Source: an uncultured Prevotellaceae bacterium (GTDB lineage: Bacteria > Bacteroidota > Bacteroidia > Bacteroidales > Bacteroidaceae). From it: a stretch of DNA of 21,663 nt. Location: the NCBI GenBank assembly GCA_946539475.1, contig CAMNHM010000032.1, positions 1-21,663 on the forward strand. Direction: 5' to 3'. The translations under genes were made by a program, and so were the position numbers. The notes beneath the pieces were generated by a model. It was not told the DNA's origin and searched no databases. It worked only from the letters and a program-made list of their open reading frames with translations. Positions 4,900 through 18,312 of this stretch are shown in pieces. The number at the start of each line of letters is the position of its first letter. Position 1 is the stretch's first letter.

Positions 4900-5331
4900 T
4901 TATAGATTTTTGACGATGCTACCATTAACGGTAAGCACTTCATCTAGTTCTCTATCATAAAAGTAACGCTCAATCGTTGCAAAACGAGGAGCAAAGTTCA
5001 CAAGAATCCCACAGGGAAACTTGGCAAGGCGTAGGTAGTTGAACAACTGAGAGCGATGGATATTAGTTAATTCTGATATGGATTTACACTCAATAATAAT
5101 ATCTTTCTTGCAAAGGAAATCCAAACGATAGACTGCACTCATTTCCCTACCGTGATAATAAGGATGAAACGACTTTTCTCTCTCGAACTCTATATTTTGT
5201 TCTCTTAACTGCAATGCCAGCCCCTCCTGATAGCAGTATTCATTAAGGCCAGCACCAAGCTCTTTGTGAACTTCATGTATGGCTCCTATTATTTCAAAAA
5301 TGTGTTCTTTAAGAAAAGCAATGTCAATCAT
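4900..5331 (-). CDS. GxxExxY family protein (PD-(D/E)xK nuclease-like)
   Basis: The 143-residue protein matches the GxxExxY family: the naming motif is GLNEYCY (G28, E31, Y34) after an N-terminal helix. A restriction-nuclease-like core follows: RLDF (D71) then IIIECKS (E81, K83), the D...ExK arrangement, and SQLFNYLRL (94-102), typical of the family. Its cellular role is not established; a PDDEXK fold suggests nucleic-acid cleavage or binding but catalysis is unproven. It sits between the LacI regulator (37 bp upstream) and the MFS gene (75 bp downstream) on the same strand. It is clearly lower in GC than both and framed by inverted repeats, all pointing to acquisition by transfer. Confidence 0.88.
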   Translation of the reverse strand: MIDIAFLKEHIFEIIGAIHEVHKELGAGLNEYCYQEGLALQLREQNIEFEREKSFHPYYHGREMSAVYRLDFLCKKDIIIECKSISELTNIHRSQLFNYLRLAKFPCGILVNFAPRFATIERYFYDRELDEVLTVNGSIVKNL

Positions 5332-5336
5332 AAAAA

Positions 5337-5363
5337 GTTGTCTTAGTTGTTCAAGTTGTCTTC
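5337..5363. repeat. 9-bp-period repeat, right arm flanking the GxxExxY gene
   Basis: Three 9-mers: GTTGTCTTA, GTTGTTCAA, GTTGTCTTC. The reverse complement aligns with the block at 4866-4892 with about three mismatches. It covers the leader of the GxxExxY gene and ends 5 bp before the stop codon of the LacI regulator gene. Confidence 0.75.
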
Positions 5364-5368
5364 AAAAC

Positions 5369-6379
5369 CTAGCGGGTTGTGCCCCGGATGATGAGGCGGG
5401 TGCGCACGACGCGCTTCTCGGCATGGTCCTTGGGCAGGCGGCCCTCTACGTGGGCGATGAGGATGTTGGCAGCCTCCTCACCCACACGGATGCCACGCTG
5501 CTCGACGGTGGTGAGCATGGGGTCGCAGGCGATGGCACGCTCGCCGTTGGTGAAGCCACAGATGGAGATGTCCTCTGGCACCCGGAGCCCCATGCGCTTC
5601 ACGGTATAGAGGATGCCGATGGCAGTGTCGTCGTTGACTGCAAAGAAGGCATCAGGATACTGCTCGCCGTCGAACATGTCGGGCGTGATGATCTCGGCAT
5701 CCTGACGGTTGTCGCAATGGCGCGTCAGACGCTCGTCGAACGGCAGCCCATGCTTCAGCAGGGCATCCTTGTAGCCGTTGAAGCGGTTCTTCGAGATCTC
5801 GAGGTTCATCTGCGATCCGTAGAAGGCGATGCGGCGGCACCCCGTCTCGATGAGATGAGTGACGGCATTGTAGGCACCCATATAGTCGTCGACGACGACG
5901 CGGCTGGCATTCACCCCTGTGCAGATACGGTCGTAGAACACCAACGGCACGCCAGCATCGATGAGACGCTGGAAATGCTCGTAGTGCTGCGTGTCCTTGG
6001 CCTGCGAGACGATGATGCCGCAGACCTTGTTCTCGTAGAACGACTGGCAGAGGCGCACCTCGCGCTCGTACTGCTCGCCGCTCTGTGCCACCATGATGCG
6101 ATAGCCGTGCTGCTCGGCCTCCTCCTCAATACCCTTGAGGATGGTGGAGAAATAGTAGTGCACCAGCTCGGGCACGATGACGCCAATGAGCTTCATCGGC
6201 TTCACACGCGAGTGGCGCAGCGACTCGGCCAGCACGTTCGGGGTGAAGTTGTGCTCGCGCGCATACTGCTGGATACGCAGGCGCTGCGCCTCGCTGATAC
6301 GAGGCGAGTCGCTCAGCGCACGCGACACCGTTGCCACCGATATGCCCAGCTCGCGGGCTATGTCCTTCATTGTCAACAT
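5369..6379 (-). CDS. LacI-family regulator of the starch/maltose locus
   Basis: The 336-residue protein has the standard LacI layout: helix-turn-helix at about 4-23 (MKDIARELGISVATVSRALS), a hinge helix NVLAESLRHS (48-57), and a periplasmic-binding-protein-like sugar sensor domain (about 62-330). Length is typical. The start giving MLTMKD is used; M4 is an alternative. The recognition helix with ATVSR fits operators of the TGCAAACGTTTGCA type, and exactly such a palindrome lies upstream (6531-6546), between this gene and susC. Classical Bacteroides sus loci use a membrane SusR, so control by a LacI protein is a different wiring. It probably responds to maltose or a maltodextrin and also controls its own gene; both are inferences. 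Confidence 0.92.
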   Translation of the reverse strand: MLTMKDIARELGISVATVSRALSDSPRISEAQRLRIQQYAREHNFTPNVLAESLRHSRVKPMKLIGVIVPELVHYYFSTILKGIEEEAEQHGYRIMVAQSGEQYEREVRLCQSFYENKVCGIIVSQAKDTQHYEHFQRLIDAGVPLVFYDRICTGVNASRVVVDDYMGAYNAVTHLIETGCRRIAFYGSQMNLEISKNRFNGYKDALLKHGLPFDERLTRHCDNRQDAEIITPDMFDGEQYPDAFFAVNDDTAIGILYTVKRMGLRVPEDISICGFTNGERAIACDPMLTTVEQRGIRVGEEAANILIAHVEGRLPKDHAEKRVVRTRLIIRGTTR

Positions 6380-6468
6380 GTTTCGTTACCGACTGTTTAC
6401 TGTTTAGCTACTAACCGTTTATGTCTCGCGTCTCTGGCTTTCCAACCGTCCCACGCCTTTTCTCAATG

Positions 6469-6501
6469 CAAAGATAGTGCAAACTTCCGTTACGCGCGCA
6501 A
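6469..6501 (-). promoter_or_regulatory. Promoter of the LacI regulator operon
   Basis: On the minus strand a TATCTTTG -7 box (6469-6476) is preceded by TTG (6499-6501) at 22 nt, slightly long for the Bacteroidetes consensus. The first ten bases (TATCTTTGCA) are identical to the divergent susC -7 region. The centre of the box is 66 bp from the centre of the 6531-6546 operator. It would drive the regulator, the GxxExxY gene, the MFS transporter and mrp. Confidence 0.65.
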
Positions 6502-6530
6502 ATACCTTATTATTATATAGGCAAACGAAG

Positions 6531-6546
6531 ATGCAAACGTTTGCAT
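6531..6546. promoter_or_regulatory. LacI-family operator, perfect 16-bp palindrome
   Basis: ATGCAAACGTTTGCAT is a perfect palindrome with the central CG and AAACGTTT core typical of LacI/PurR/CcpA-type sites. Its centre (6538/6539) is exactly midway between the -7 boxes of the regulator gene (6469-6476) and susC (6601-6608), 66 bp from each. An additional GCAAACG half-site is at 6521-6527 and a GCAAAC at 6479-6484. A near-identical site lies upstream of the second amylase gene at 15579-15592. Confidence 0.85.
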
Positions 6547-6576
6547 ATAGTAGTAACGAGAAAATGGCAAGAAAAA

Positions 6577-6608
6577 TTGCATTACATGGCAAAAAACGTC
6601 TATCTTTG
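6577..6608 (+). promoter_or_regulatory. Promoter of the susC-D-E-F operon
   Basis: TTG (6577-6579), 21 nt, TATCTTTG (6601-6608): a good match to the Bacteroidetes -33/-7 consensus. Transcription would start near 6614, leaving a leader of about 60 nt before the susC ATG. The operator is centred 66 bp upstream of the -7 box centre, a position more typical of an activator than of a blocking repressor. Confidence 0.75.
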
Positions 6609-6677
6609 CAGCGAAAATTTACCTAGAAGATATCGTCCGAAAGAATCGATTAACAATATTAACCAACTAAAAAAGTA

Positions 6678-9635
6678 ATGATGAAGCAGGTAAACATTCA
6701 ATTACCGCTGAGGATGATGGCCCTCTTGTTGGGACTCTTCCTTTCGGTAGGGGCCTTTGCGCAGCAGATCACTGTGAAGGGCCATGTGAAAGATGCTACT
6801 GGTGAACCCATCATCGGAGCTTCCATCCGCGTCGTCGGCACCCAGACGGGAGCCGTGAGCGACTTCGACGGTAACTTCCAGGTGAAGGCCAACCAGGGAC
6901 AGACACTCAGTGTCACGTATGTGGGTTATCAGACAGCCGAGGTGAAGGCTGCACCCAGCGTGACAATCACACTGCAGGACGATGCCCAGCTGCTGAAAGA
7001 TGTGGTGGTCATCGGTTATGGTACCGTGAAAAAGAGCGATGCCACCGGTTCGGTGATGTCGGTCGAGGCCGACCAGCTGAACAAGGGTCTGGCCACGTCG
7101 CCCGCTGATCTGCTGCAGGGTAAGACCCCCGGTGTGCAAATCACGACCAACAGCGGTGCCCCTGGTGCAGGATCGACCATCCGCATTCGTGGCGGCTCGT
7201 CACTTTCAGCCAGCAACGACCCTCTGATCGTCATCGACGGTCTGCCCATCAGCTCGACGGGCATCAGCGGCGGTGATGTGCTGAACACCATCAACCCCAA
7301 CGACATCGAGTCGTTCTCCATCCTGAAGGATGCATCGGCAACGGCCATCTATGGTAGCCGTGCCTCTAACGGTGTGATCCTCATCACCACGAAGAAGGGT
7401 AAGGCTGGCGCCAAGCCCCGCATCAACGTTGATCTGAGCGGAACATTCAAGACCGTCGGCAAGAAGGTCGACGTGCTCAGCGCCGAGGGTTTGAGAGAGC
7501 TCTTCACCTCACGCTACAGTGACAATGCCGATGCAATGGCTGCCCTGGGCAACGCCAACACCAACTGGCAGGACGAGATCTACAAGACTGCATTTGCTGA
7601 GGAAGTGAATGCCAGCGTTACGGGCGGCTATGTGGCTCAGGAAGGCGACTTCAAGATGCCATACCGCGTCAGCGCAGGATTCCTGAACAACGACGGTACG
7701 CTGAAGACCTCGAACATGAACCGCGGTACGGTGGGCCTGAACCTCACCCCCACCCTGCTTGACGACCGTCTGACAATCAACCTCAACGGTAAGGGCGTGT
7801 TCACTCACAACGCATACGCTGACGAAGGTGCCATCGGACAGGCTGTGAAGTACAATCCTCTGAAGCCCGTCTACAACGAGGACGGCACTTACCACTACTG
7901 GATGAACAGCGGACTGCCCAACTCAATGGCTCTGCTCAATCCCGTGGCTCAGCTCAACCAGCAGAACAAGGACTCATACGTACGTCGCTTCGTGGGCAAT
8001 GCTCAGTTCGACTATAAGTTCAAGTTCCTCGAAGGCCTCCGTGCCAACCTCAACCTCGGTCTCGACTTCTCCACCACCAGCGGTTGGAACGTTACCGAGC
8101 AGAACAGCGAAATCTCCTGGCACGACAAGGCACAGAACGGTAGCGGTCTCTGGGAGAGCTACTCACAGCTGCGTCGCGACCAGACCCTTGAGTTCTATCT
8201 GGCCTATGCCAAGGAGCTTGAGGAGCTCAAGAGCCGCTTCGACATCCTCGGCGGTTATTCATGGCAGCGTTTCTTCAACAGGACTACCAGCTATAAGGTA
8301 TCGAACGACGGTCTGGGCACAGAGTTTGCCACCACGCCGCTGTTCAAGACCGAGAGCTACCTCGTGTCATTCTACGGACGTCTGAACTACACCCTCATGG
8401 ACCGCTACCTGCTCACCGCTACCCTGCGTAACGATGGTACTTCGCGCTTCCAGAACAACAAGTGGGGCTTGTTCCCCTCAGTGGCTCTGGCATGGCGCAT
8501 CAGCGAGGAGCCGTTCCTGAAGAACGTCGACTGGCTGTCGAACCTGAAGCTCCGTCTGGGCTATGGTATCACCGGTCAGCAGAACATCGGACAGGGTGAC
8601 TATCCCTCCATCGCTACCTATCACACCAATCAGGCCGGTTCCTACTACTGGTTCGGCAACAACGTGATTATTCCTATCACGCCGAAGGGCTATGCCGCCC
8701 AGATCAAGTGGGAGGAGACCACGACCTACAACGTCGGTCTGGACTTCGGCTTCATGAGGAACCGCATCAACGGTAGCATCGATCTCTACAAGCGCAAGAC
8801 CAACGACCTGTTGAACTTCGTACCCGTCTCCGCTGGCACCAACCTCACCAACTATCTGCTGCAGAACGTAGGCGACATGGAGAACAAGGGTATTGAAGTA
8901 GCCTTGAACGTCGTTCCCATCGAGCAGAAGGACCTGCGCTGGGAAGTGGGCGTGAACGTGGCCTACAACAAAAACGAGATCACTAAGCTGACTGCCAGCG
9001 ACGATCCCACCTATCCCGGCGTGGAGACTGGCGGCATCTCGGGTGGTGTAGGCAACAAGGTGCAGATACAGAAGGTGGGCAATCCCATCAACTCGTTCTA
9101 TGTGTTCCAGCAGGTTTATGCTGAGAATGGCAAACCCCTGGAAGGTGTCTATGTAGACCGCAACCACGACGGACAGATCACCGACGACGACCGCTACGTC
9201 TACTACAAGCCCGATGCTGACGTGAACATCGGCTTCAACACCGAGCTTAGCTACAAGAAGTGGACCCTCTCGGCATCACTCCGTTCAAGCCTGGGCAACT
9301 ACGTATATAATAATGTGGCCTCCGACGCTGAGATGCTGGCCGACCTCTGGACCAACAACTTCATCGCCAACCGCGTGACCACCGCTCCGTTCAGCAACTT
9401 CTCGCAGGCACAGTACAAGAGTGACTACTACGTGCAGAACGCTTCCTTCCTGAAGCTCGACAAGGTGACCCTGGCCTACAACCTCACTGACTGGTGCCGT
9501 CTGAACTTCACTGCCCAGAACATATTCACCATCACCAACTACGAGGGCGTTGATCCTGAGGTGGCTGGCGGCATCGACAATAACATGTATCCCCGCTCAC
9601 GTAACTTCATCCTGGGTGCAAGCTTTAACTTTTAA
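6678..9635 (+). CDS. susC: SusC-like TonB-dependent outer membrane transporter
   Basis: The 985-residue protein is a SusC/RagA-type TonB-dependent porin that imports oligosaccharides through the outer membrane, with the SusD lipoprotein as its lid. Signal peptide to about AFA-28. A carboxypeptidase-regulatory-like beta domain spans 31-100 (TVKGHVKDATGEPIIGASI), followed by the segment VVVIGYGTVKKSD (109-121) and the plug domain with DIESFSILKDASATAIYGSR (209-228) and NGVILITTKKG (231-241), all hallmarks of the SusC family. The rest is a beta-barrel ending in the aromatic residue of GASFNF. The start may be either of two adjacent ATG codons (6678 or 6681). It is first in the operon, 21 bp before susD, with a LacI operator and promoter upstream. 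Maltooligosaccharide is the likely substrate from context. Confidence 0.95.
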   Translation: MMKQVNIQLPLRMMALLLGLFLSVGAFAQQITVKGHVKDATGEPIIGASIRVVGTQTGAVSDFDGNFQVKANQGQTLSVTYVGYQTAEVKAAPSVTITLQDDAQLLKDVVVIGYGTVKKSDATGSVMSVEADQLNKGLATSPADLLQGKTPGVQITTNSGAPGAGSTIRIRGGSSLSASNDPLIVIDGLPISSTGISGGDVLNTINPNDIESFSILKDASATAIYGSRASNGVILITTKKGKAGAKPRINVDLSGTFKTVGKKVDVLSAEGLRELFTSRYSDNADAMAALGNANTNWQDEIYKTAFAEEVNASVTGGYVAQEGDFKMPYRVSAGFLNNDGTLKTSNMNRGTVGLNLTPTLLDDRLTINLNGKGVFTHNAYADEGAIGQAVKYNPLKPVYNEDGTYHYWMNSGLPNSMALLNPVAQLNQQNKDSYVRRFVGNAQFDYKFKFLEGLRANLNLGLDFSTTSGWNVTEQNSEISWHDKAQNGSGLWESYSQLRRDQTLEFYLAYAKELEELKSRFDILGGYSWQRFFNRTTSYKVSNDGLGTEFATTPLFKTESYLVSFYGRLNYTLMDRYLLTATLRNDGTSRFQNNKWGLFPSVALAWRISEEPFLKNVDWLSNLKLRLGYGITGQQNIGQGDYPSIATYHTNQAGSYYWFGNNVIIPITPKGYAAQIKWEETTTYNVGLDFGFMRNRINGSIDLYKRKTNDLLNFVPVSAGTNLTNYLLQNVGDMENKGIEVALNVVPIEQKDLRWEVGVNVAYNKNEITKLTASDDPTYPGVETGGISGGVGNKVQIQKVGNPINSFYVFQQVYAENGKPLEGVYVDRNHDGQITDDDRYVYYKPDADVNIGFNTELSYKKWTLSASLRSSLGNYVYNNVASDAEMLADLWTNNFIANRVTTAPFSNFSQAQYKSDYYVQNASFLKLDKVTLAYNLTDWCRLNFTAQNIFTITNYEGVDPEVAGGIDNNMYPRSRNFILGASFNF

Positions 9636-9640
9636 TCATT

Positions 9641-9647
9641 AAGGAGG
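9641..9647 (+). promoter_or_regulatory. Strong Shine-Dalgarno sequence of susD
   Basis: AAGGAGG ends 9 nt before the susD ATG at 9657. Consensus ribosome binding sites are uncommon in Bacteroidetes, and the other genes in this window have weak ones, so susD translation is probably boosted relative to its neighbours. That would suit a surface protein needed in large amounts. Confidence 0.7.
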
Positions 9648-9656
9648 ACAAGAAAT

Positions 9657-11216
9657 ATGAAACTGAATATCAAGAAATACGGTTTGATTCCTGCCGTCGC
9701 CACGGCCTTTGCCTTTACAGCTTGCACTGGCGACCTGGACGTGACCCCTATTGACCCCAATCTGGACACCCCCGAAAACGTACTCACCAATAACGATGCT
9801 TATAATCAGATTCTGGCCAAGTGCTATATAGGCCTTGCAGTCAGTTCGGCCGACGGCCCCAGCGGAGGTCCCGACATCGAAGGTATCGACGGTGGCTTCG
9901 GTCAGTATCTGCGTGCCCTGTTCAACCTGCAGGAGCTGCCCACCGACGAGTGCGTCATGGGCTGGAACGACCAGACCATCAAGGACCTGCACGGACTGCA
10001 GTGGACCTCTAGCGACGTGTTCATCTCGGCTTGCTATAGCCGCATCTTCTACCAGATCTCGATGTGCAACGAGGTGATGCGCCGCATCGGCAACACCGAC
10101 GACGCCACCTTGAAGCAGTACAAGGCTGAAGCTCGTGCACTGCGCGGACTGAGCTATCTGCACGCCATCGACCTCTTCGGCAATGTTCCCTTCACCGACG
10201 AGAACTCGGAGGTGGGTGGTGCCAACCCACAGCAGATCAGCCGTGCCGACCTGTTCAACTGGCTTGTCAAAGATATGGAGGAATGTGCCAACGACCTGCC
10301 TGCTAATCCCGAGAAGTATCGCTGCGGCAAGGGTATGGTCTACATGATCCTGGCCAAGCTCTACCTGAATGCTCAGGTTTACACAGGCACAGCCAACTAT
10401 GCCAAGTGCGCCGAGTACTGCCAGAAGGTCATCGACCTGGGCTACAAACTTGAGTCGGCAGCCGACTGGTACAAGATGTTCTGTGCCGACAACGACCAGC
10501 TGCTGGGCACCGGCCACGAGCTTATCTTCAGCGTCTATCAGGATCACATCAACACCCAGGCTTACGGTGGCTCGACCTACATCGTCTGTGCTTCTATCGG
10601 TGGCAACATGAATCCTGCTGACTATGGACTCGGCGGCGACGGTTGGGGCGGCATCCGCCTTACCCCGCAGTTCGTCAACAAGTTCGATGAGACGGCCGAC
10701 CAGCGTGCACGTTTCTTCACCGACGGACAGTCGAAGGCCATTGCTGACCTGAGCAACTTCCAGAGCGGATATGCCTACACGAAGTTCACCAACCTGAAGG
10801 CCAACGGCTCGATGATCAGCGGTGCCAACGCCTTCCCCGACACAGACTTTATCATCTTCCGCCTGGCTGATGTCTACCTCATGCTGGCTGAGTGTCAGGT
10901 GGTGGGCGGCGTACAGTGCGACGGTATTGCCCGCTTCAACGAAATCCGCACACGTGCCGGCGTGCCCGCCATTGCCAATCCCACCAAGCAGGACATCATC
11001 GATGAGCGCGGACGTGAGCTGGCATGGGAGTGCCATCGCCGCTCCGACCTGGTGCGCTTCAACCAGCTCACCACGGCCGAATACCTCTGGAGCCACAAGG
11101 GCATGAACAGCAACGTGGGTACACCCCATGCTGTCGATGCCAAGTACAACCTCTTCCCACTGGCTTCGAGCGATGTCATGTCGAACACGAACCTCCAGCA
11201 GAACCCGGGATATTGA
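9657..11216 (+). CDS. susD: SusD-like starch-binding surface lipoprotein
   Basis: The 519-residue RagB/SusD-family lipoprotein binds glycans at the cell surface and closes over the SusC pore. Lipobox FTAC with Cys23. Family signatures: RALRGLSYLHAIDLFGNVPF (160-179), the TPR-like region around 225-262, FNEIRTRAGVPAI (427-439) and DERGRELAWECHRRSDLVRF (449-468). W103 in MGWNDQ and W330 in GWGGIRLTPQFV are placed in regions comparable to the starch-stacking tryptophans of Bacteroides SusD; this is an inference without alignment. Start chosen at the ATG behind a consensus Shine-Dalgarno. It lies between susC and the susE-like gene in the same operon. Confidence 0.95.
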   Translation: MKLNIKKYGLIPAVATAFAFTACTGDLDVTPIDPNLDTPENVLTNNDAYNQILAKCYIGLAVSSADGPSGGPDIEGIDGGFGQYLRALFNLQELPTDECVMGWNDQTIKDLHGLQWTSSDVFISACYSRIFYQISMCNEVMRRIGNTDDATLKQYKAEARALRGLSYLHAIDLFGNVPFTDENSEVGGANPQQISRADLFNWLVKDMEECANDLPANPEKYRCGKGMVYMILAKLYLNAQVYTGTANYAKCAEYCQKVIDLGYKLESAADWYKMFCADNDQLLGTGHELIFSVYQDHINTQAYGGSTYIVCASIGGNMNPADYGLGGDGWGGIRLTPQFVNKFDETADQRARFFTDGQSKAIADLSNFQSGYAYTKFTNLKANGSMISGANAFPDTDFIIFRLADVYLMLAECQVVGGVQCDGIARFNEIRTRAGVPAIANPTKQDIIDERGRELAWECHRRSDLVRFNQLTTAEYLWSHKGMNSNVGTPHAVDAKYNLFPLASSDVMSNTNLQQNPGY

Positions 11217-11257
11217 TCATTGATTATTAATATTGAACATTGAAAAGGAATATAGTT

Positions 11258-12178
11258 ATGAAAGCAAGATATTTCAAGACCGGTCTGCTGTTTGCAGCCA
11301 TCGCCATGATGTTCACAGCCTGCGACTCGGACCGCGACGACAACCCCGTACTGGGACCAGCCAATGCGCCCACGGAGTTCGTGCTGAACGCTTCGCCACT
11401 GGCTAACCAGTACATCGACATCTTCAAGGACAACAAGATCAACCTCACTTGGTCGCAGCCCAACTATTTCGTCAACACCGTTGTGAACTACAAGGTGCAG
11501 GTCGGTCTGGTACAGGGTGGCAACACCAAATGGGACACTGAGGACAACGGAAGTGCAAGGTTCCTGGAGACAGCATTCACCTCATGCTCGGCTACCCTCA
11601 GCGGTGAGGAGATTTCTCAGAGCATCAATCACATCAACGGTATCACCGACGAGAACAACTGGACAGATCCCGGTTATCTCGAAGTGGCCTTCCGTGTCTA
11701 TGCCGACATTCAGACCACTGCCAAGGAGTCTATCGAAGGCACAGGCATCTATTCGAACGCCGTCACCTTCAAGTCGATGCGTCCTGACAACAGCATCAAG
11801 GGTCTGGCAAGCATCTATGTCATTGGTAACTGCTCAGGATGGACAGAACCCGCCAAGGGCAATGCCGAGGCACTTGCAGCATGGCGCATCATGGAGACTG
11901 AGATAGGCAGCAACGTCTTTGTCGGTACATTCGACATTCCTGGTGGCATGCTCCAGTTCCGCTTCTACACCAAGCTCACCGGCTGGGATGGCGGCAACTC
12001 GTATGGTACTCAGGTCGACGACGCGCCCATCGTCTGCAACTTCGATGCTGACGGCAAGTACACTGGTCCTGCCGTGAACGGTAAGGGCTCGTGGGAGTTC
12101 GACGACTGGGCAGGAGGACAGCTCAAGATGACCGTCGACATGAACAAGAACACTGTCACATTCGAAACCGTTAAGTGA
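11258..12178 (+). CDS. susE: SusE-like outer membrane starch-binding lipoprotein
   Basis: The 306-residue lipoprotein (lipobox FTAC, Cys22) has an N-terminal SusE-type domain (about 35-175, with FVLNASPLANQYIDI and INLTWSQPNY) and one C-terminal carbohydrate-binding module (about 185-306, starting IYVIGNCSGW and ending with an MTVDMNKNTVTF strand). SusE-family proteins hold starch at the surface but are not enzymes. I chose ATG 11258 over an in-frame TTG at 11240 because the ATG is preceded by AAAAGGA and directly starts the signal peptide MKARYFKTG. Two residues after Cys22 begin the acidic stretch DSDRDD, which fits surface export. It sits 41 bp after susD in the operon. Whether it is best called SusE or a general SusE/F-type protein cannot be settled from the sequence alone. 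Confidence 0.85.
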   Translation: MKARYFKTGLLFAAIAMMFTACDSDRDDNPVLGPANAPTEFVLNASPLANQYIDIFKDNKINLTWSQPNYFVNTVVNYKVQVGLVQGGNTKWDTEDNGSARFLETAFTSCSATLSGEEISQSINHINGITDENNWTDPGYLEVAFRVYADIQTTAKESIEGTGIYSNAVTFKSMRPDNSIKGLASIYVIGNCSGWTEPAKGNAEALAAWRIMETEIGSNVFVGTFDIPGGMLQFRFYTKLTGWDGGNSYGTQVDDAPIVCNFDADGKYTGPAVNGKGSWEFDDWAGGQLKMTVDMNKNTVTFETVK

Positions 12179-12256
12179 TTGTAAGCAGAAGTAATGTTTA
12201 ACCAGAGGCGGGAACCGTGTCAAACCGTTGCCCGCCTCCCAAAGACAAAAGAAAAG

Positions 12257-14137
12257 ATGAAAAAGACAAGCTTATATATGATGGCCTTGCTCACCATGGG
12301 ATTCGCCGCATGTAACGACGATTTCCCCACTGAGTTCGTGCCTCAGACGAATGCTCCTGAGAACGCATTCCCGGCCAATGCCGTCAGCGTCACACCATCG
12401 GCTTCGACCATCAACCTCGTCGACCTGCTTGCCGCTGAGGAAGAGCAGCCCATTGCCATCGGTACCATCAACCTGGCATCACCGCTGCCCGCCAACACTG
12501 AGATGAAGGCCGAGGTACAGATCTCACGTAATGAGGACTTCTCACAGGTTGTCACCCTTGACGCCAACGTCGACGAGAAGAACGTCATCACCGTGATGCC
12601 TTCAGCTCTTAGTGATGCCTATTTTGGCAGTATCACCAAGAACCCTGCCTCTACCGACCTCTACCTGCGCACGCTGCTCTACACCGTCACTGGTGGTGAG
12701 GCCGTGACCATCGTCGGTACTCCTGGCAACAACTACTACGGCACTCAGAAGGTGGCTTTCACCCCTGAGAACCGTGCCAACATCTCGGCAGCCTATTATC
12801 TCATCGGCGGTCCCAACGACTGGCAGTCCTCAGCCACCGAGCGCATGATCAAGTTCAGCCACAGCGGAGCCGACGTCTATGAGGATCCTATCTTCACCGT
12901 CATCTTCGATGCTGCCGCCGAGGGCGACACTTGGTTTGCCATTGGTGACGACGCTGCCTGCGACGCCATCGGCAACGGTGACTGGAGCAAGCTGCTCGGC
13001 ATCGTGGGTGGCAACAGCCAGGCCACCGAGGGACAGATTGACTTCCGCTACAACCTGGGAGGCGACAACTCGTTCTGCGTACCTGCCGGTCCGAAGAAGA
13101 TCAAGGTGACGCTCAACATGCTCGAGTACACCTTCAAGGTAGAGTCGGTCAACATTGCCGAGGCCTACTACCTCATCGGCGGACCCGGCGAGTGGAGTGC
13201 CGAGTCGGCTATGACCATGCAGTTCTCGCACAGCAGCGCCAGCGTGGTCGACGATCCCGTCTTCACCTATACCATTGAGAGCACGGGTAGTGAGCTCTGG
13301 TTCGCCTTTGGCGATAAGGAAGCTATCGACGCCGTGGCCGAAGGCACATGGAACAAACTCTTCGGCACCACAGGTGCCAGCGAGGATCTCAGCGGTTCGT
13401 TCGACCGTCGCTACAACCTCGACGGCGACCATTCCTTCCACGTCGACGGGCAGGCTAAGTTCTACCGCTTCCAGGTGAACATGGCCGACATGACCTACGT
13501 CATCACCCCGCTGAACTTCCAGCAGTACATCTACGAGGCTGGTGTGAACAATGGCTGGGGAGGCACGGAGCAGCCACTCTACTGCGCTGACGGCAATGGC
13601 ATCTATACCGGATTCTTCTATGCCAAAGAAGACAGCTGGACTGACGGAAAGGGTGCCTTCAAATTGCGTGGTGCAGCCGACAACTGGGACAACGGCAACT
13701 ATGGAACGGGTACGCTCAATGCCGACGGCCTTACCGGCACGCTGATTGATGATGGCAATTCCGGCAATATCATGCCTGAACCGGGATTCTATCGTGCAGA
13801 TGTCAATTTAGCCGATATGACTTACAAGCTTACACCCATCAAGAGTGTATTCGTTGTTGGCAGTGCAGTGAATAACGACTGGGACAAAGGTGTCGAGATG
13901 ACCTACAACTTCGACAAGCTTTGCTGGGAATGTGATGCTACCTTCACCGAGGCCGGTGTCATCAAGTTCAAGGGTAATGGCACTTGGGACACTGAAGACG
14001 GTAACTGGGGTGGTACAGCCGATAACATCATCAACGGCTCTAATGACAATATCCCCGTCAGCGTCTCGGGAGATGTTCACATTGAGTTCTATCCGCTCTG
14101 CGAGACGAAAGCACACTGCATCATCACCAAGAGGTAA
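12257..14137 (+). CDS. susF: SusF-like lipoprotein with four starch-binding-type modules
   Basis: The 626-residue lipoprotein (lipobox FAAC, Cys19, then NDDF) has an N-terminal SusE/F domain (about 25-170) and four successive beta modules: 178-298 (AAYYLIGGPNDW), 302-418 (AEAYYLIGGPGEW), 424-527 and 529-626. The first two are clear tandem copies of each other, sharing the YYLIGGP opening, an F-SHS-A block, a W-A-GD strand and a closing hydrophobic strand. Bacteroides SusF carries three modules, so this protein has one more. It should grip starch at the cell surface next to SusD/E. I took ATG 12257 (behind AAAGAAAAG, starting MKKTSLYMM) because the upstream in-frame ATG 12194 would bury the signal peptide. 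A strong terminator follows. Confidence 0.85.
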   Translation: MKKTSLYMMALLTMGFAACNDDFPTEFVPQTNAPENAFPANAVSVTPSASTINLVDLLAAEEEQPIAIGTINLASPLPANTEMKAEVQISRNEDFSQVVTLDANVDEKNVITVMPSALSDAYFGSITKNPASTDLYLRTLLYTVTGGEAVTIVGTPGNNYYGTQKVAFTPENRANISAAYYLIGGPNDWQSSATERMIKFSHSGADVYEDPIFTVIFDAAAEGDTWFAIGDDAACDAIGNGDWSKLLGIVGGNSQATEGQIDFRYNLGGDNSFCVPAGPKKIKVTLNMLEYTFKVESVNIAEAYYLIGGPGEWSAESAMTMQFSHSSASVVDDPVFTYTIESTGSELWFAFGDKEAIDAVAEGTWNKLFGTTGASEDLSGSFDRRYNLDGDHSFHVDGQAKFYRFQVNMADMTYVITPLNFQQYIYEAGVNNGWGGTEQPLYCADGNGIYTGFFYAKEDSWTDGKGAFKLRGAADNWDNGNYGTGTLNADGLTGTLIDDGNSGNIMPEPGFYRADVNLADMTYKLTPIKSVFVVGSAVNNDWDKGVEMTYNFDKLCWECDATFTEAGVIKFKGNGTWDTEDGNWGGTADNIINGSNDNIPVSVSGDVHIEFYPLCETKAHCIITKR

Positions 14138-14156
14138 CAAAGAACTTAGATTACTA

Positions 14157-14196
14157 TCAGGCGAGCCGCTCATTGCTACGGCTCGCTTGATTTTTT
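14157..14196 (+). terminator. Rho-independent terminator between susF and the first amylase gene
   Basis: TCAGGCGAGCCG (14157-14168) pairs with CGGCTCGCTTGA (14179-14190), a 12-bp stem with a single G-T wobble and a 10-nt loop, followed directly by TTTTTT. It lies between susF and the GH13 lipoprotein gene, whose ATG is only 21 bp further on. No TAnnTTTG box is visible between the hairpin and that gene. Confidence 0.85.
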
Positions 14197-14217
14197 ACAA
14201 AACTAATAGGCACAGAA

Positions 14218-15561
14218 ATGAAGGAAGTACTTACCATCATCTGCTTAGCCGTGCTGCTGCTGACAGCCTGCGATCCCAAGCCAAAGAAAAGCGTCGCCGA
14301 CTTCCAGCTCCCTGCCGTCGACGACATTGCCATGTATCAGGTCAATCCGCGTGTGTTCGCTCCTGACCACTCACTCAATGCCGTCGCTGCACGCATCGAC
14401 AGCATCCGCGACCTGGGCGTCAACGTGATGTGGGTCATGCCCATCTACCCCATCGGCATCGAGAAAGGCAAGAACTCGCCCTACTGCATCAGCGACTACA
14501 AGGCCATCGCCCCCGAGTTTGGCACCATCGACGAGTTCAAGAATCTGGTGAAAGTATGCCACGAGCACGGCATGGGCATCATCTTGGACTGGGTGGCCAA
14601 CCATACCGCATGGGATCATCCCTGGCTGAAGGAGCATCCCGACTGGTACACCCACGACGAAGAGACCGACACCATCATTCATCCGCGTCCCTGGGACTGG
14701 CTCGACGTGGCTGACCTGAACTATGACAGCCGCGACATGCGACGCGCCATGATCGACGCGATGAAGTTCTGGATCACTGAGGTGGGCATCGACGGCTTCC
14801 GCTGCGATGTGGCCGATGGCGTGCCTGCCGACTTCTGGAAAGAAGCCATCGACGAACTGCGCCAGGCTGCTCAGCCTCGTAAGATTGTGATGCTGGCCGA
14901 GGGCAAGAACGTCGATAACTTCACCGTCGGAGGCTTCGACATGAACTACGGCTGGGACTTCAAGGACTCCCTGCTCCACGTCTTCCAGAACGGCATGCCA
15001 GCCGAACACCTCATCCAGGCCGACCGTGCCGAGTACGAGAGCCTGCCGGCTGGCAAGGTGAAGATGCGTTTCACCACCAACCACGACCACTCTACTGAAG
15101 CCACACCCGTCGTGGAGTTCACCAACGAGCGCGGCTCGATGGCTGCCTATGTGGCCACCATCTTCCTGCATGGCGGAGCTCTCATCTATGGATCGCAGGA
15201 GGTAGGCTACCCCACTCCCATCAACTTCTTCCACTACGTACCCGTCGACTGGACGGCAAATTCTTCCCTCTACCAGGAGTACAAGGCCCTCATTCATCTC
15301 TATAACGAGCATCCCGCCCTGCGCAAAGGTCAGCTTACGACTTATCCCGCCCAGGATGTACTGGTGTTCGAGAAGAGCGATGCCAAGGAGCGTTTCCTCG
15401 TCCTCGTGAACGTACGCAACAACCCCTCTGAGGCCGCCATTCCTGAGCAGTGGCAGGGCAAGGAAGTGGAGGATGAGATGCTCGATCGCGATGTGGAGCT
15501 CAACACTTCCATCACGCTCGCTCCCTACGAATACTACATTCTTGAGATGGACGAAGACTAG
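14218..15561 (+). CDS. GH13 alpha-amylase-family lipoprotein (first amylase)
   Basis: The 447-residue GH13 enzyme hydrolyses alpha-1,4-glucans. Lipobox LTAC with Cys18. All four GH13 regions are present: DWVANH (124-129), GFRCDVAD (193-200, nucleophile D197), LAEG (226-229, acid/base E228), TTNHDH (286-291, D290). After the barrel there is a short beta domain (about 375-445) and no carbohydrate-binding module. Residues after the lipid cysteine (CDPKPKK) are basic, unlike the acidic export signals of the other Sus lipoproteins, so it may face the periplasm and trim imported maltodextrins; this is an inference. It lies behind a terminator with no obvious promoter of its own, so expression may depend on read-through from susCDEF. 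Confidence 0.92.
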   Translation: MKEVLTIICLAVLLLTACDPKPKKSVADFQLPAVDDIAMYQVNPRVFAPDHSLNAVAARIDSIRDLGVNVMWVMPIYPIGIEKGKNSPYCISDYKAIAPEFGTIDEFKNLVKVCHEHGMGIILDWVANHTAWDHPWLKEHPDWYTHDEETDTIIHPRPWDWLDVADLNYDSRDMRRAMIDAMKFWITEVGIDGFRCDVADGVPADFWKEAIDELRQAAQPRKIVMLAEGKNVDNFTVGGFDMNYGWDFKDSLLHVFQNGMPAEHLIQADRAEYESLPAGKVKMRFTTNHDHSTEATPVVEFTNERGSMAAYVATIFLHGGALIYGSQEVGYPTPINFFHYVPVDWTANSSLYQEYKALIHLYNEHPALRKGQLTTYPAQDVLVFEKSDAKERFLVLVNVRNNPSEAAIPEQWQGKEVEDEMLDRDVELNTSITLAPYEYYILEMDED

Positions 15562-15578
15562 GCCAAACAGGAGAGCGC

Positions 15579-15592
15579 TGCAAACGATTGCA
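15579..15592. promoter_or_regulatory. Second LacI-type operator, upstream of the CBM amylase gene
   Basis: TGCAAACGATTGCA differs from the core of the perfect palindrome at 6531-6546 (TGCAAACGTTTGCA) by one base. Its centre (15585/15586) is 66 bp upstream of the centre of the TACCTTTG -7 box at 15648-15655, exactly the spacing found at the susC and regulator promoters. This makes a chance match unlikely and ties the second amylase to the same regulator. Confidence 0.75.
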
Positions 15593-15610
15593 CGAAATAA
15601 TAACTATATT

Positions 15611-15644
15611 AAGAGCCGCCTCAACTTGTTGTGGGCGGCTTTTT
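15611..15644 (+). terminator. Terminator of the first amylase gene
   Basis: AAGAGCCGCC (15611-15620) pairs with GGCGGCTTTT (15634-15643) around a 13-nt loop, the last bases of the stem merging with the T-run. It lies 50 bp after the stop codon of the first GH13 gene. Its loop holds the TTG -33 element of the next promoter, so the two signals overlap. Confidence 0.65.
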
Positions 15645-15655
15645 GCTTACCTTTG
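15626..15655 (+). promoter_or_regulatory. Promoter of the CBM amylase gene
   Basis: TTG (15626-15628), 19 nt, TACCTTTG (15648-15655). The -33 element is in the loop of the upstream terminator. Transcription would start about 25 nt before the ATG at 15686. The LacI-type operator is centred 66 bp upstream of the -7 centre. Confidence 0.75.
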
Positions 15656-15685
15656 CATCAAACAAAACTTCAAGAAGCAAAAACG

Positions 15686-17710
15686 ATGAAGAAAACGTTT
15701 TCACTATTCCTCCTGATGATAGGGGCCGTCGCACTGGGATTCACCTCATGTGGCGACGATGACCCGGAACCAAAGCCGACGCCTGTCACCCCGAAGGATT
15801 CAACGAGCGTTGAGCCCAAGGACACGACGAATACCAATCCCCAGCCTCAGGGCAAGGCAGCCATCGGATGGCCGGCCAACTATGGCGGTGTGATGCTGCA
15901 GGCTTTCTACTGGGACTCGTTCGACGACTCGCAGTGGACGCAACTCCAGGCACAAGCCGACCAGATGAAAGGCACCTTCGACCTTGTCTGGCTGCCACAG
16001 AGCGGCAACTGCGGAGGCACGTCGATGGGCTACGACGACCTCTACTGGTTCTCCGACTACAATAGCTCCTTCGGCAATGAGCAGCAGCTGCGCTCGCTCA
16101 TCAACACCTTCAAGGCCAACGAGATCAAGACCATCGCCGACGTGGTCATCAACCACCGCCGCAATTTGTCGAGCTGGGTGGACTTCCCCAAGGAGACCTA
16201 CAAGGGCGTCACCTACGAGATGGTGTCTACCGACATCTGCGCCAATGATGACGGAGGCAAGACCAAACAGTGGGCCACACAGAACGGCTTCGAGCTTTCC
16301 AAGAACAACGACACGGGCGAGGGATGGGACGGCATGCGCGACCTCGACCACCGCAGCGAGAACGTGCAGACCATCGTCAAGGCCTACCTCGACTTCCTGA
16401 AGGATGACCTGGGCTATGCCGGCTTCCGCTATGATATGGTGAAGGGCTATTCAGCCAGTTATACAGCCATGTACAACTCCTCGTCACAGCCAGAGTTCAG
16501 CGTCGGTGAATGCTGGGACGGCACGAACATGATTAAACGCTGGATCGACGGCACGAAACTGAACGACCAGATTCAGAGCGCTGCCTTCGACTTCCAGTTC
16601 CGCTATACCGTACGTAATGCCATGAACAACACGAACTATGCCCGTCTGGGGCAGCAGAACGACGGAAACTGGCCGCTCGTGAGCAGCAGCCAGGATGCAG
16701 GCCAGTACCGTCGTTATGCCGTGACCTTCGTCGAGAATCATGACACCGAGCGCCGCTCGAATGCTGCACAGGACCCGCTGCTGAAGGACACCCTGGCCGC
16801 CAACGCCTATATGCTCGCCATGCCCGGCACGCCCTGCGTCTTCATGAAGCACTGGCAGGCTTATCCCGCCCAGATCAAAGCGATGGTGGCAGCCCGCAAG
16901 GCGGCTGGTATCAACAATGAGAGCAGTTACAAAACCATACGCTCCCAGGCCGGATGCTACATCAACACCATCTCTACATCCAACGATGAGCGCCTGCTCG
17001 TGGTCATCGGCAGCGAGAAGGGCAACGAGAGCTTTATCGACACCAAGCAGTGGGCCAAGGCCGTCGAGGGCTATCACTACGCCTACTACCTCCCCACGTC
17101 GATGGAGACCGCCTATGCCGACCTGCCCTCCGGCACCTACGAAGGCACGCAGCAGGTACGCCTGTCGGCCCTCACCACCAAGGGCGATGCGAAGATTGCC
17201 TACACGCTCAACGGCGAGGAATCAGCCAATGCCGTTCCCAGCGGCTTCATCCTGCAGCTGCCCGTTGGCAAGAACACACTGAAAGTCAGCCTATCCATCG
17301 ACGGCAAGGAGACAGGCACCATCGAGCGCACCTACGTCGTCAAAGAGAAAGAGAGCGAGAAGCCCGTCGAGATTCCATCGTTCTGCACCGTCGCAGCGGG
17401 CGAGACATGCGCTTTCTTCGAGGCTCCTGCCACATGGGCCAACACCATCAAGTGCTGGGCATGGATTGACAACGGCTCCAACTTCACAGGTGGCACATGG
17501 CCGGGTACGGCATGCACCCTGCTGGGCACTGCCCCCAACGGCAACAAAGTATGGAAATGGACCTATTCAGGCACGTTGACCACGCGCCCGCAGAAGATCA
17601 TCTTCAACAACGACGGATCGCCACAGACCGAAGACCTCGTCTTTGAAAACGGCGGTTATTACAACAAAGACGGCCTGAAGGGTGTCGTCAGCGGCAACGC
17701 TGGCACTTAG
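15686..17710 (+). CDS. Surface alpha-amylase lipoprotein (GH13) with CBM26-like module
   Basis: The 674-residue protein has a lipoprotein signal (lipobox FTSC, Cys22), then the acidic GDDDPEP and a Pro/Thr/Asp linker to about 56, pointing to surface exposure. The GH13 barrel carries all four regions: DVVINH (152-157), GFRYDMVKG (246-254, nucleophile D250), VGECWDG (273-279, E275) and VENHDT (349-354, D353). LDHRSENVQ and DLGYAGFRYDMVKGYS recall plant/archaeal-type amylases. A small domain at about 480-550 (PSGTYEGTQQVRL) resembles chitobiase C-terminal Ig-like domains, and 570-674 (WAWIDNGSNFTGGTWPG, IIFNNDGSPQTED) resembles CBM26 starch-binding modules. I chose ATG 15686, not the longer frame from 15473, because the latter would overlap the previous gene and hide the signal peptide. 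Probable SusG counterpart. Confidence 0.92.
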   Translation: MKKTFSLFLLMIGAVALGFTSCGDDDPEPKPTPVTPKDSTSVEPKDTTNTNPQPQGKAAIGWPANYGGVMLQAFYWDSFDDSQWTQLQAQADQMKGTFDLVWLPQSGNCGGTSMGYDDLYWFSDYNSSFGNEQQLRSLINTFKANEIKTIADVVINHRRNLSSWVDFPKETYKGVTYEMVSTDICANDDGGKTKQWATQNGFELSKNNDTGEGWDGMRDLDHRSENVQTIVKAYLDFLKDDLGYAGFRYDMVKGYSASYTAMYNSSSQPEFSVGECWDGTNMIKRWIDGTKLNDQIQSAAFDFQFRYTVRNAMNNTNYARLGQQNDGNWPLVSSSQDAGQYRRYAVTFVENHDTERRSNAAQDPLLKDTLAANAYMLAMPGTPCVFMKHWQAYPAQIKAMVAARKAAGINNESSYKTIRSQAGCYINTISTSNDERLLVVIGSEKGNESFIDTKQWAKAVEGYHYAYYLPTSMETAYADLPSGTYEGTQQVRLSALTTKGDAKIAYTLNGEESANAVPSGFILQLPVGKNTLKVSLSIDGKETGTIERTYVVKEKESEKPVEIPSFCTVAAGETCAFFEAPATWANTIKCWAWIDNGSNFTGGTWPGTACTLLGTAPNGNKVWKWTYSGTLTTRPQKIIFNNDGSPQTEDLVFENGGYYNKDGLKGVVSGNAGT

Positions 17711-17741
17711 AGGCTGGCCGGCGAGTCAGATAGATCAGCCT
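17711..17741. terminator. Weak hairpin between convergent genes
   Basis: AGGCTG (17711-17716) pairs with CAGCCT (17736-17741) with GGCC/GGC-rich bases in the loop. It fills the 29-bp gap between the amylase stop and the stop of the minus-strand lipoprotein. It lacks a T-run on either side, so termination is only suggested by position. Confidence 0.25.
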
Positions 17742-18312
17742 AATCATGTACGTCCGTCACGGTGCGCTTGAGCATGATTGGTTTCTTCGGCAGCTTCGGA
17801 TATAAATGCCAATAGAAAATTGTTTCAATGGCACACGTGGAAGCTCTGTCAATGTGGTCGACCAACTGAGTCTCCAGTTCATAAGCATCCCCAAAATCGC
17901 GGAGGATGACGCTACGGAGTTCTTGAGAGCCGTTACCCCACGTCTTGCCAATGACAAGTGTGTACTGACCGAAATCTACATCGGGCAACACCTTCGTACC
18001 CATGTAAGCCGTCTGGAATTCCTCTTGGCTATTGATCACCAGGACGCGTTCGTCATTCCACTCTCCTCGCTCAAAAAAGGACTTGTGTATATTCCCCTCA
18101 TCGTCCCAAGTAGGTTCATGAAGCTCCTCTGCGAAGAACACGGACAAGGGGTTTGCTTTGTCGAACTGCTGGATTGCATATCCATTATAGACGACACCAC
18201 CACACACGTCATCAATACCTGCAGCGACTTCGTCATCGTCGTTGCTGCTGCAACTGCTCAATCCTGCTATCGTCAGAAGGAGCAGACTCATCCAAAATAG
18301 TTTCCTCTTCAT
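17740..18312 (-). CDS. Small hypothetical lipoprotein
   Basis: I do not recognise the family. The 190-residue protein begins MKRKLFWMSLLLLTIAGLSSC, a lipoprotein signal with Cys21 followed by SSNDDDE, an acidic stretch like those that direct Bacteroidetes lipoproteins to the cell surface. The body contains NSQEEFQTAYMGT (about 93-105) and QYTLVIGKTWGNGSQELRSV, suggesting a small beta-rich domain, and a basic tail (KLPKKPIMLKRTV). I used ATG 18312; an in-frame start 33 bp upstream would add residues ahead of the signal peptide. The gene converges on the amylase gene. GC is somewhat lower than in the Sus genes. No link to starch use can be shown. Confidence 0.72.
   Translation of the reverse strand: MKRKLFWMSLLLLTIAGLSSCSSNDDDEVAAGIDDVCGGVVYNGYAIQQFDKANPLSVFFAEELHEPTWDDEGNIHKSFFERGEWNDERVLVINSQEEFQTAYMGTKVLPDVDFGQYTLVIGKTWGNGSQELRSVILRDFGDAYELETQLVDHIDRASTCAIETIFYWHLYPKLPKKPIMLKRTVTDVHD

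Follow-up and report, generated by a model that had tools for sequence, protein, structure and literature searches.

Palindromic operators at a fixed distance from starch-gene promoters suggest a LacI-family activator in Prevotella and its relatives

The window analysed here is a stretch of 21,663 nucleotides from an uncultured Prevotellaceae bacterium (contig CAMNHM010000032.1 of assembly GCA_946539475.1). It carries a gene for a LacI-family regulator divergent from a SusC/SusD-type operon, followed by a GH13 amylase gene with a CBM26 module. Two nearly identical palindromes, one between lacI and susC and one ahead of the CBM26 amylase, are each centred 66 bp from a TAnnTTTG promoter box, and this distance is conserved in related genomes. 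Probably the LacI-family protein encoded at 5369-6379 has both palindromes as its operators and, bound there, activates from one face of the helix in a class I-like manner. The first-pass annotation of the window had pointed to the equal spacing and named no mechanism; the geometry of operators and boxes argues for an activator.

Operators, promoter boxes and their spacing

The elements concerned are the following.
6532..6545, no strand assigned: first operator, TGCAAACGTTTGCA, common to the two divergent promoters (lacI/susC), found by sequence search
15579..15592, plus strand: second operator, TGCAAACGATTGCA, directly past the GH13 stop codon, found by sequence search
6469..6476, minus strand: -7 box for the lacI-family gene, at 66 bp from the first operator
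6601..6608, plus strand: -7 box for the susC operon, at 66 bp from the first operator
15648..15655, plus strand: TAnnTTTG (-7) box in the promoter of the CBM26 amylase, at 66 bp from the second operator
15611..15643, plus strand: terminator-like hairpin with T-run at the end of the susC..GH13 operon, within the operator-box spacer, found by folding

The operators TGCAAACGATTGCA and TGCAAACGTTTGCA differ by one base and the three centre-to-centre distances are 66.0, 66.0 and 66.0 bp, both as first annotated. Only the sites at 6532-6545 and 15579-15592 match TGCAAACGNTTGCA in the window without mismatch. By themselves, two operators with three equal spacings would be modest evidence. The TAnnTTTG box is frequent in the window (10 seen, 4.3 expected), as would suit a mere coincidence in A/T-rich intergenic DNA.

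Comparison among genomes speaks to this point. Querying with the LacI protein yielded 34 loci, and the scan covered 26 of them (L005-L030; 76-94% identity; titled Prevotella, Prevotellaceae or Bacteroidales), leaving out eight from other phyla (L031-L038; 25-34% identity). The nearest named records were Prevotella and Prevotellaceae metagenome-assembled genomes, mostly from rumen. All 26 related loci have an operator with at most two mismatches to TGCAAACGNTTGCA between lacI and susC, and in all 26 a box stands on both sides of it at 65-67 bp, that is on 52 sides. For whole genomes we used the pattern GCAAACGNTTGC-N(41-71)-TAnnTTTG, in which 31 spacings are possible and the expected share at 64-67 bp is 4/31. 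The pattern was present in 153 of 200 genomes of the genus, and 143 of the 150 matches listed were at 64-67 bp (64: 3; 65: 60; 66: 70; 67: 10). At family level it was found in 61/301 genomes and 19/30 genera, with 47 of the 72 matches listed from other genera of the family at 64-67 bp; at order level it was found in 44/247 genomes, with 28 of the 64 matches listed from outside the family in this range. Binomial p-values were about 1e-116 (genus), 1e-24 (rest of family) and 1e-9 (rest of order), with related genomes treated as independent. The reversed pattern, used as control, had two matches in the 200 genus genomes. Given the share of matches at 64-67 bp in the genus, chance is untenable as an explanation; the spacing histograms and the reversed-pattern control lead us to reject it, and we give a coincidence virtually no probability. 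After thinning to less than 60% spacer identity, 183 sites remained for the comparisons below.

The first-pass annotation had proposed just such a search at a fixed distance of 65-67 bp, with random spacing as the outcome that would speak against the rule. Spacing was not random in the genus, in the rest of the family or in the rest of the order, and the rule held. The distance is indeed fixed, but its actual range is 64-67 bp, with 65 and 66 about equally frequent. Our literature search returned no report of the operator or the spacing in Prevotella, with subscription papers mostly outside its reach. There is reportedly earlier work on the starch genes of Bacteroides fragilis; it did not turn up in the search.

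The regulator and the genes behind the operators

The genes of the window are arranged as follows.
5369..6379, minus strand: LacI/GalR-family regulator, likely owner of the operators (Pfam PF00356, PF13377)
6678..9635, plus strand: SusC-like TonB-dependent receptor (Pfam)
9657..11216, plus strand: SusD-like protein (Pfam)
11240..12178, plus strand: SusE-like protein (Pfam match under the curated cut-off)
12194..14137, plus strand: fourth gene of the operon, in the SusF position, 647 aa, without Pfam match
14218..15561, plus strand: GH13 amylase, final gene of the susC operon (Pfam)
15686..17710, plus strand: GH13 amylase with CBM26 (Pfam)

The lacI gene on the minus strand thus diverges from an operon of susC, susD, a susE-like gene, an unknown gene and a GH13 gene (6678-15561), with the CBM26 amylase next. 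For the latter, the ATG at 15686 was chosen as start; the listed open reading frame, from 15473, begins within the preceding gene.

The regulator has an N-terminal LacI helix-turn-helix (PF00356, E 3.2e-15, residues 3-48) and a periplasmic-binding-protein-like domain (PF13377, E 1.1e-32), and the palindromes have the central CG of LacI/GalR operators. The solved chains nearest to it are those of CcpA. Its Pfam architecture is that of LacI and not that of a membrane-bound, SusR-type regulator with a periplasmic sensor; nor did Pfam find in it a histidine kinase or AraC-type domain, as in hybrid two-component systems. Among 62 genomes of the genus, an orthologue of at least 64% identity was found in 49/49 genomes with the pattern versus 3/13 without it, and two of these three carry variant operators, one at 67/67 bp and one at 65 bp.

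It could be asked whether the operators belong to some other protein, for instance a second LacI paralogue. A paralogue of 35-39% identity, present in many genomes of the genus, uses nearly the same core (mostly CGTAAACGTTTGCG), and cross-talk is possible. The sites, however, lie in the divergent promoter of this very lacI in 26/26 loci, orthologue and pattern occur together as just described, and ten solitary sites at the right spacing also stand ahead of lacI. We regard a different owner as highly improbable.

Of the solitary sites, 109 of the 111 on-spacing and 11 of the 18 off-spacing ones were examined with their downstream DNA. The first gene behind the 109 on-spacing sites was GH13 with CBM26 in 24 cases, SusC in 22 (a family match, not implying starch specificity of each gene), GH77 in 18, lacI in 10, another GH13 in 8 (some of them weak matches), GH97 in 5, beta-lactamase in 3, GH53 in 3 and a large protein in one (L151), while 15 were unmatched to the references; Pfam was run on one representative each of GH77, GH97, GH53 and beta-lactamase. 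Alpha-glucan enzymes (GH13 with CBM26, GH77, GH13, GH97) hence follow 55 of the 109. Behind the 11 off-spacing sites, nine had none of these genes, one had GH53 at 68 bp and one had lacI (L247), the last with an additional box at 67 bp. The enrichment next to alpha-glucan genes that had been predicted from the window is accordingly seen at on-spacing sites. As to the small regulon of three promoters proposed there, the shared rule stands, but the regulon is larger, with GH77 above all, GH97 and other GH13 genes. The nearest genome, G001, has an additional site ahead of a GH77 gene, and a site of this type lies nearby in 5 of the 26 related loci; on these grounds the GH77 4-alpha-glucanotransferase is the predicted next member of the regulon in the genome of the window.

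A different genus of the family has LacI homologues (53-56% identity) next to genes of susC type or GH53, and the geometry there is almost unchanged; the operator architecture therefore extends beyond starch. The GH53 genes there (L206, L207, L208, L243) are preceded by the same operator core at 65-68 bp, each site adjoining such a homologue. An identical class A beta-lactamase (Pfam), presumably CfxA, occurs in three genomes (L131, L138, L152) behind two boxes, 67 and 47 bp from an operator-like site.

Activation or repression from upstream

Transcription is expected to start about 7 bp past the -7 box. The LacI-family protein (5369-6379) would then bind both palindromes about 73 bp upstream of the start (66 + ~7) and touch RNA polymerase from upstream on the same helix face, as class I activators do. 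From 6532-6545 it would drive lacI and susC in both directions, and from 15579-15592 the CBM26 amylase; the signal is likely to be a cytoplasmic malto-oligosaccharide or maltose. In our reading, a soluble LacI-family regulator activating from about -73 replaces SusR here.

Four properties of the sites bear on the mode of action. Firstly, they lie upstream of -35 at positions one helical turn apart (64-67 bp; 53-56 and 64-65 bp at a second promoter type described below), as is characteristic of class I activation. Among listed matches beyond 63-68 bp, those near 55 or 76 bp made up 15/32 in the order outside the family (p 0.004) and 9/22 in the rest of the family (p 0.06). Secondly, a repressor that blocks the promoter is expected 20-50 bp from the box, where TGCAAACGNTTGCA had 11 matches in 200 genomes, five of them at 28-29 bp, as against a 51-81 bp pattern (the operator pattern two bases shorter) in 153 of the 200; repression by overlap with the promoter was rejected on this basis. 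Thirdly, TTG 22-23 bp before the box (the -33 element) was found in 13 of the 183 thinned operator promoters versus 26 of 78 controls, promoters taken from 15 genomes in twenty stretches of 20 kb (Fisher p 2.5e-7), with 2/63 on the lacI side and 0/34 on the susC side. Fourthly, the spacers differ in sequence, their length being conserved more than their content. Terminator-like hairpins were predicted in 11/183 spacers, seven of them convincing by eye, versus 1/183 after shuffling. The hairpin in the window is one that a simple terminator scan did not report and that folding did (15609-15646: minimum free energy -18 kcal/mol, z -4.5, none of 200 shuffles equally good).

The alternative is that LacI represses from upstream in the ordinary way and is released by sugar; it would shield an A/T-rich polymerase contact or a second activator, or loop to a weaker site. 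LacI-family proteins are mostly repressors, and this general fact is among several points that weigh against activation. Past the second operator there are two weak operator-like sites, 15644-15657 and 15690-15703, each with three mismatches; chance alone would give 6.3 matches of up to three mismatches in the window. The five close-in sites at 28-29 bp (G137:C125, G185:C40, G162:C11, G132:C63, G154:C75) are a further point; they may belong to the paralogue, which has the same position before its own gene, or to chance. All three promoters of the window contain a TTG, that of the CBM26 amylase at the usual -22, within the hairpin loop, and those of susC and lacI at -24 and -25, so that depletion of the -33 element is a tendency across the set that the window itself does not display. 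An A/T tract is found 29-31 bp past the operator start in 93-98% of the thinned sites, but the tract, 23.5 bp from the operator, is present in the controls too (WWW 73% against 84%) and therefore looks like a general upstream promoter feature and not a special mark of activation. As to ownership, the orthologue-bearing genome G175 had no site of up to three mismatches in the 700 bp searched, and lacI and pattern are to some extent bound to occur together, since the site is part of the lacI promoter. Repression from upstream is also known, in the lev operon of Bacillus subtilis (available text of PMC3463425). Finally, some spacers hold a second palindrome of Fnr/Crp type (TTRAY-N4-RTCAA), with 11 matches in the 183 spacers, 29-42 bp before the box, at a shuffled rate of 0.08%; possibly it provides a second input.

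Against repression stand the scarcity of close-in matches, the activator-type loss of the -33 element across the set and the fixed phase of the sites, whereas repressor positions are usually scattered. The second palindrome occurs in a small minority of spacers. A second operator-like match (up to three mismatches) within 128 bp of the box was found in 8/183 thinned promoters versus 3.3 after shuffling, and in the window none lies near 6532-6545; a loop partner is for these reasons not the rule, and a loop to a further operator close to the start was rejected. On balance we think an upstream repressor unlikely and favour the LacI-family activator.

Such activation is not without precedent, since CcpA and MdxR are known. 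CcpA activates from cre sites upstream of -35, the effect being set by the helix face, according to the available text of PMC3463425. It is the nearest solved relative of the LacI of the window by overall sequence similarity and has a similar operator with central CG, but is global, acts together with HPr-Ser-P and is mostly a repressor, whereas the LacI of the window is local, stands beside its targets and has one fixed position; sites placed for repression are few. In Enterococcus faecium, the LacI-family protein MdxR activates maltodextrin genes (PMC3737153, text as available), though its targets are ABC transporters and its phylum is a different one; the words operator, promoter and binding site are absent from the main text of that paper. 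In Bacteroides thetaiotaomicron, SusR controls and activates the SusC/SusD starch operon, and the LacI regulators listed for this species serve uronate pathways (both from the accessible part of PMC3878776); the locus of the window has instead a LacI with a palindrome. The sus loci of B. fragilis and Bacteroides uniformis have LacI-type regulators and lack SusR, as stated in the accessible part of PMC11633381, which gives no operator, spacing or mode of action for them; probably this is the same kind of substitution. In S. copri DSM18205 the sus locus is described as degenerate (PMC11784079, available text). The Bacteroidota papers compared here, in their accessible portions, contain no LacI operator or spacing rule for starch genes.

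On this evidence, rumen and gut bacteria of a major group seem to turn on starch use through a soluble activator of LacI type, in contrast to SusR, the textbook case. The rule itself allows the targets of a transcription factor to be located from sequence in unannotated Prevotella genomes, and makes the mode of action of LacI-type proteins in Bacteroidota directly testable.

The paralogue, a small-RNA-like gene and the surroundings of the locus

In 14/20 loci of the 35-39% paralogue a similar operator lies 28-29 bp from the paralogue's own box, and in 10/20 it lies 55 bp from a box facing outward. A divergent protein gene at the 55-bp promoter was looked for and discarded, none being consistent in 12 stretches by script and none present in two by eye; an RNA-like element stands there instead. 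The promoter of this small-RNA-like gene has a recognisable LacI-type operator in 26/30 loci, at 53-56 bp in 22 and 64-65 bp in four with none between, and the operator distance thus shifts by a helical turn. The operator form GCAAACGTTTAC behaves similarly across the genus, where the 130 matches listed include 89 at 54-56 bp, 33 at 64-66 bp and two at 57-63 bp. Some at 64-66 bp precede CBM26 amylases (L328, L332) and belong rather to the regulator of the window.

We see about even chances that Bacteroidales possess a class of LacI-family activators in fixed helical phase to TAnnTTTG (55 or 66 bp away), with starch and a small RNA as targets of the Prevotella members. If so, one Prevotella activator of LacI type runs the starch regulon where SusR would otherwise do so, another turns on a conserved small RNA, and polysaccharide loci have a route of activation beyond SusR and hybrid two-component systems.

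The small-RNA-like gene lies outside the window (L376-L405; for example G046:C1 near 354531, minus strand). A near-invariant 5' part (GAGTAATGAATAGTTGATAATAAGTTAGTTAGAAA) follows the TAnnTTTG and leads into a hairpin and T-run, with about 65-80 nt counted from GAGT. When 22 of the 30 sequences were aligned, 10 of 20 predicted pairs were changed on both sides; the eight left out were badly bounded ones, one duplicate and three others. A 28-base core (up to two mismatches) was present in 49 of 120 genus genomes, in single copy each and exact in 47, and lay beside the LacI paralogue in 10 of the 11 genomes where both were seen, G064 being the exception. Eight of the loci were tried against Rfam, with no match at gathering score.

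Known RNA families were also scanned in the window and none reached the gathering score. A plasmid origin was rejected, positions 5000-17800 having no match in a plasmid collection. The product of the fourth gene of the susC operon (12194-14137) is 98.9% identical in G001. At the corresponding locus of the nearest genome (L373) the susC..GH13 products are 97-100% identical to those of the window and the CBM26 amylase lies about 9 kb farther off, by which we conclude that DNA was gained or lost between the GH13 gene and this amylase. The operator stays with the CBM26 amylase there despite the shift.
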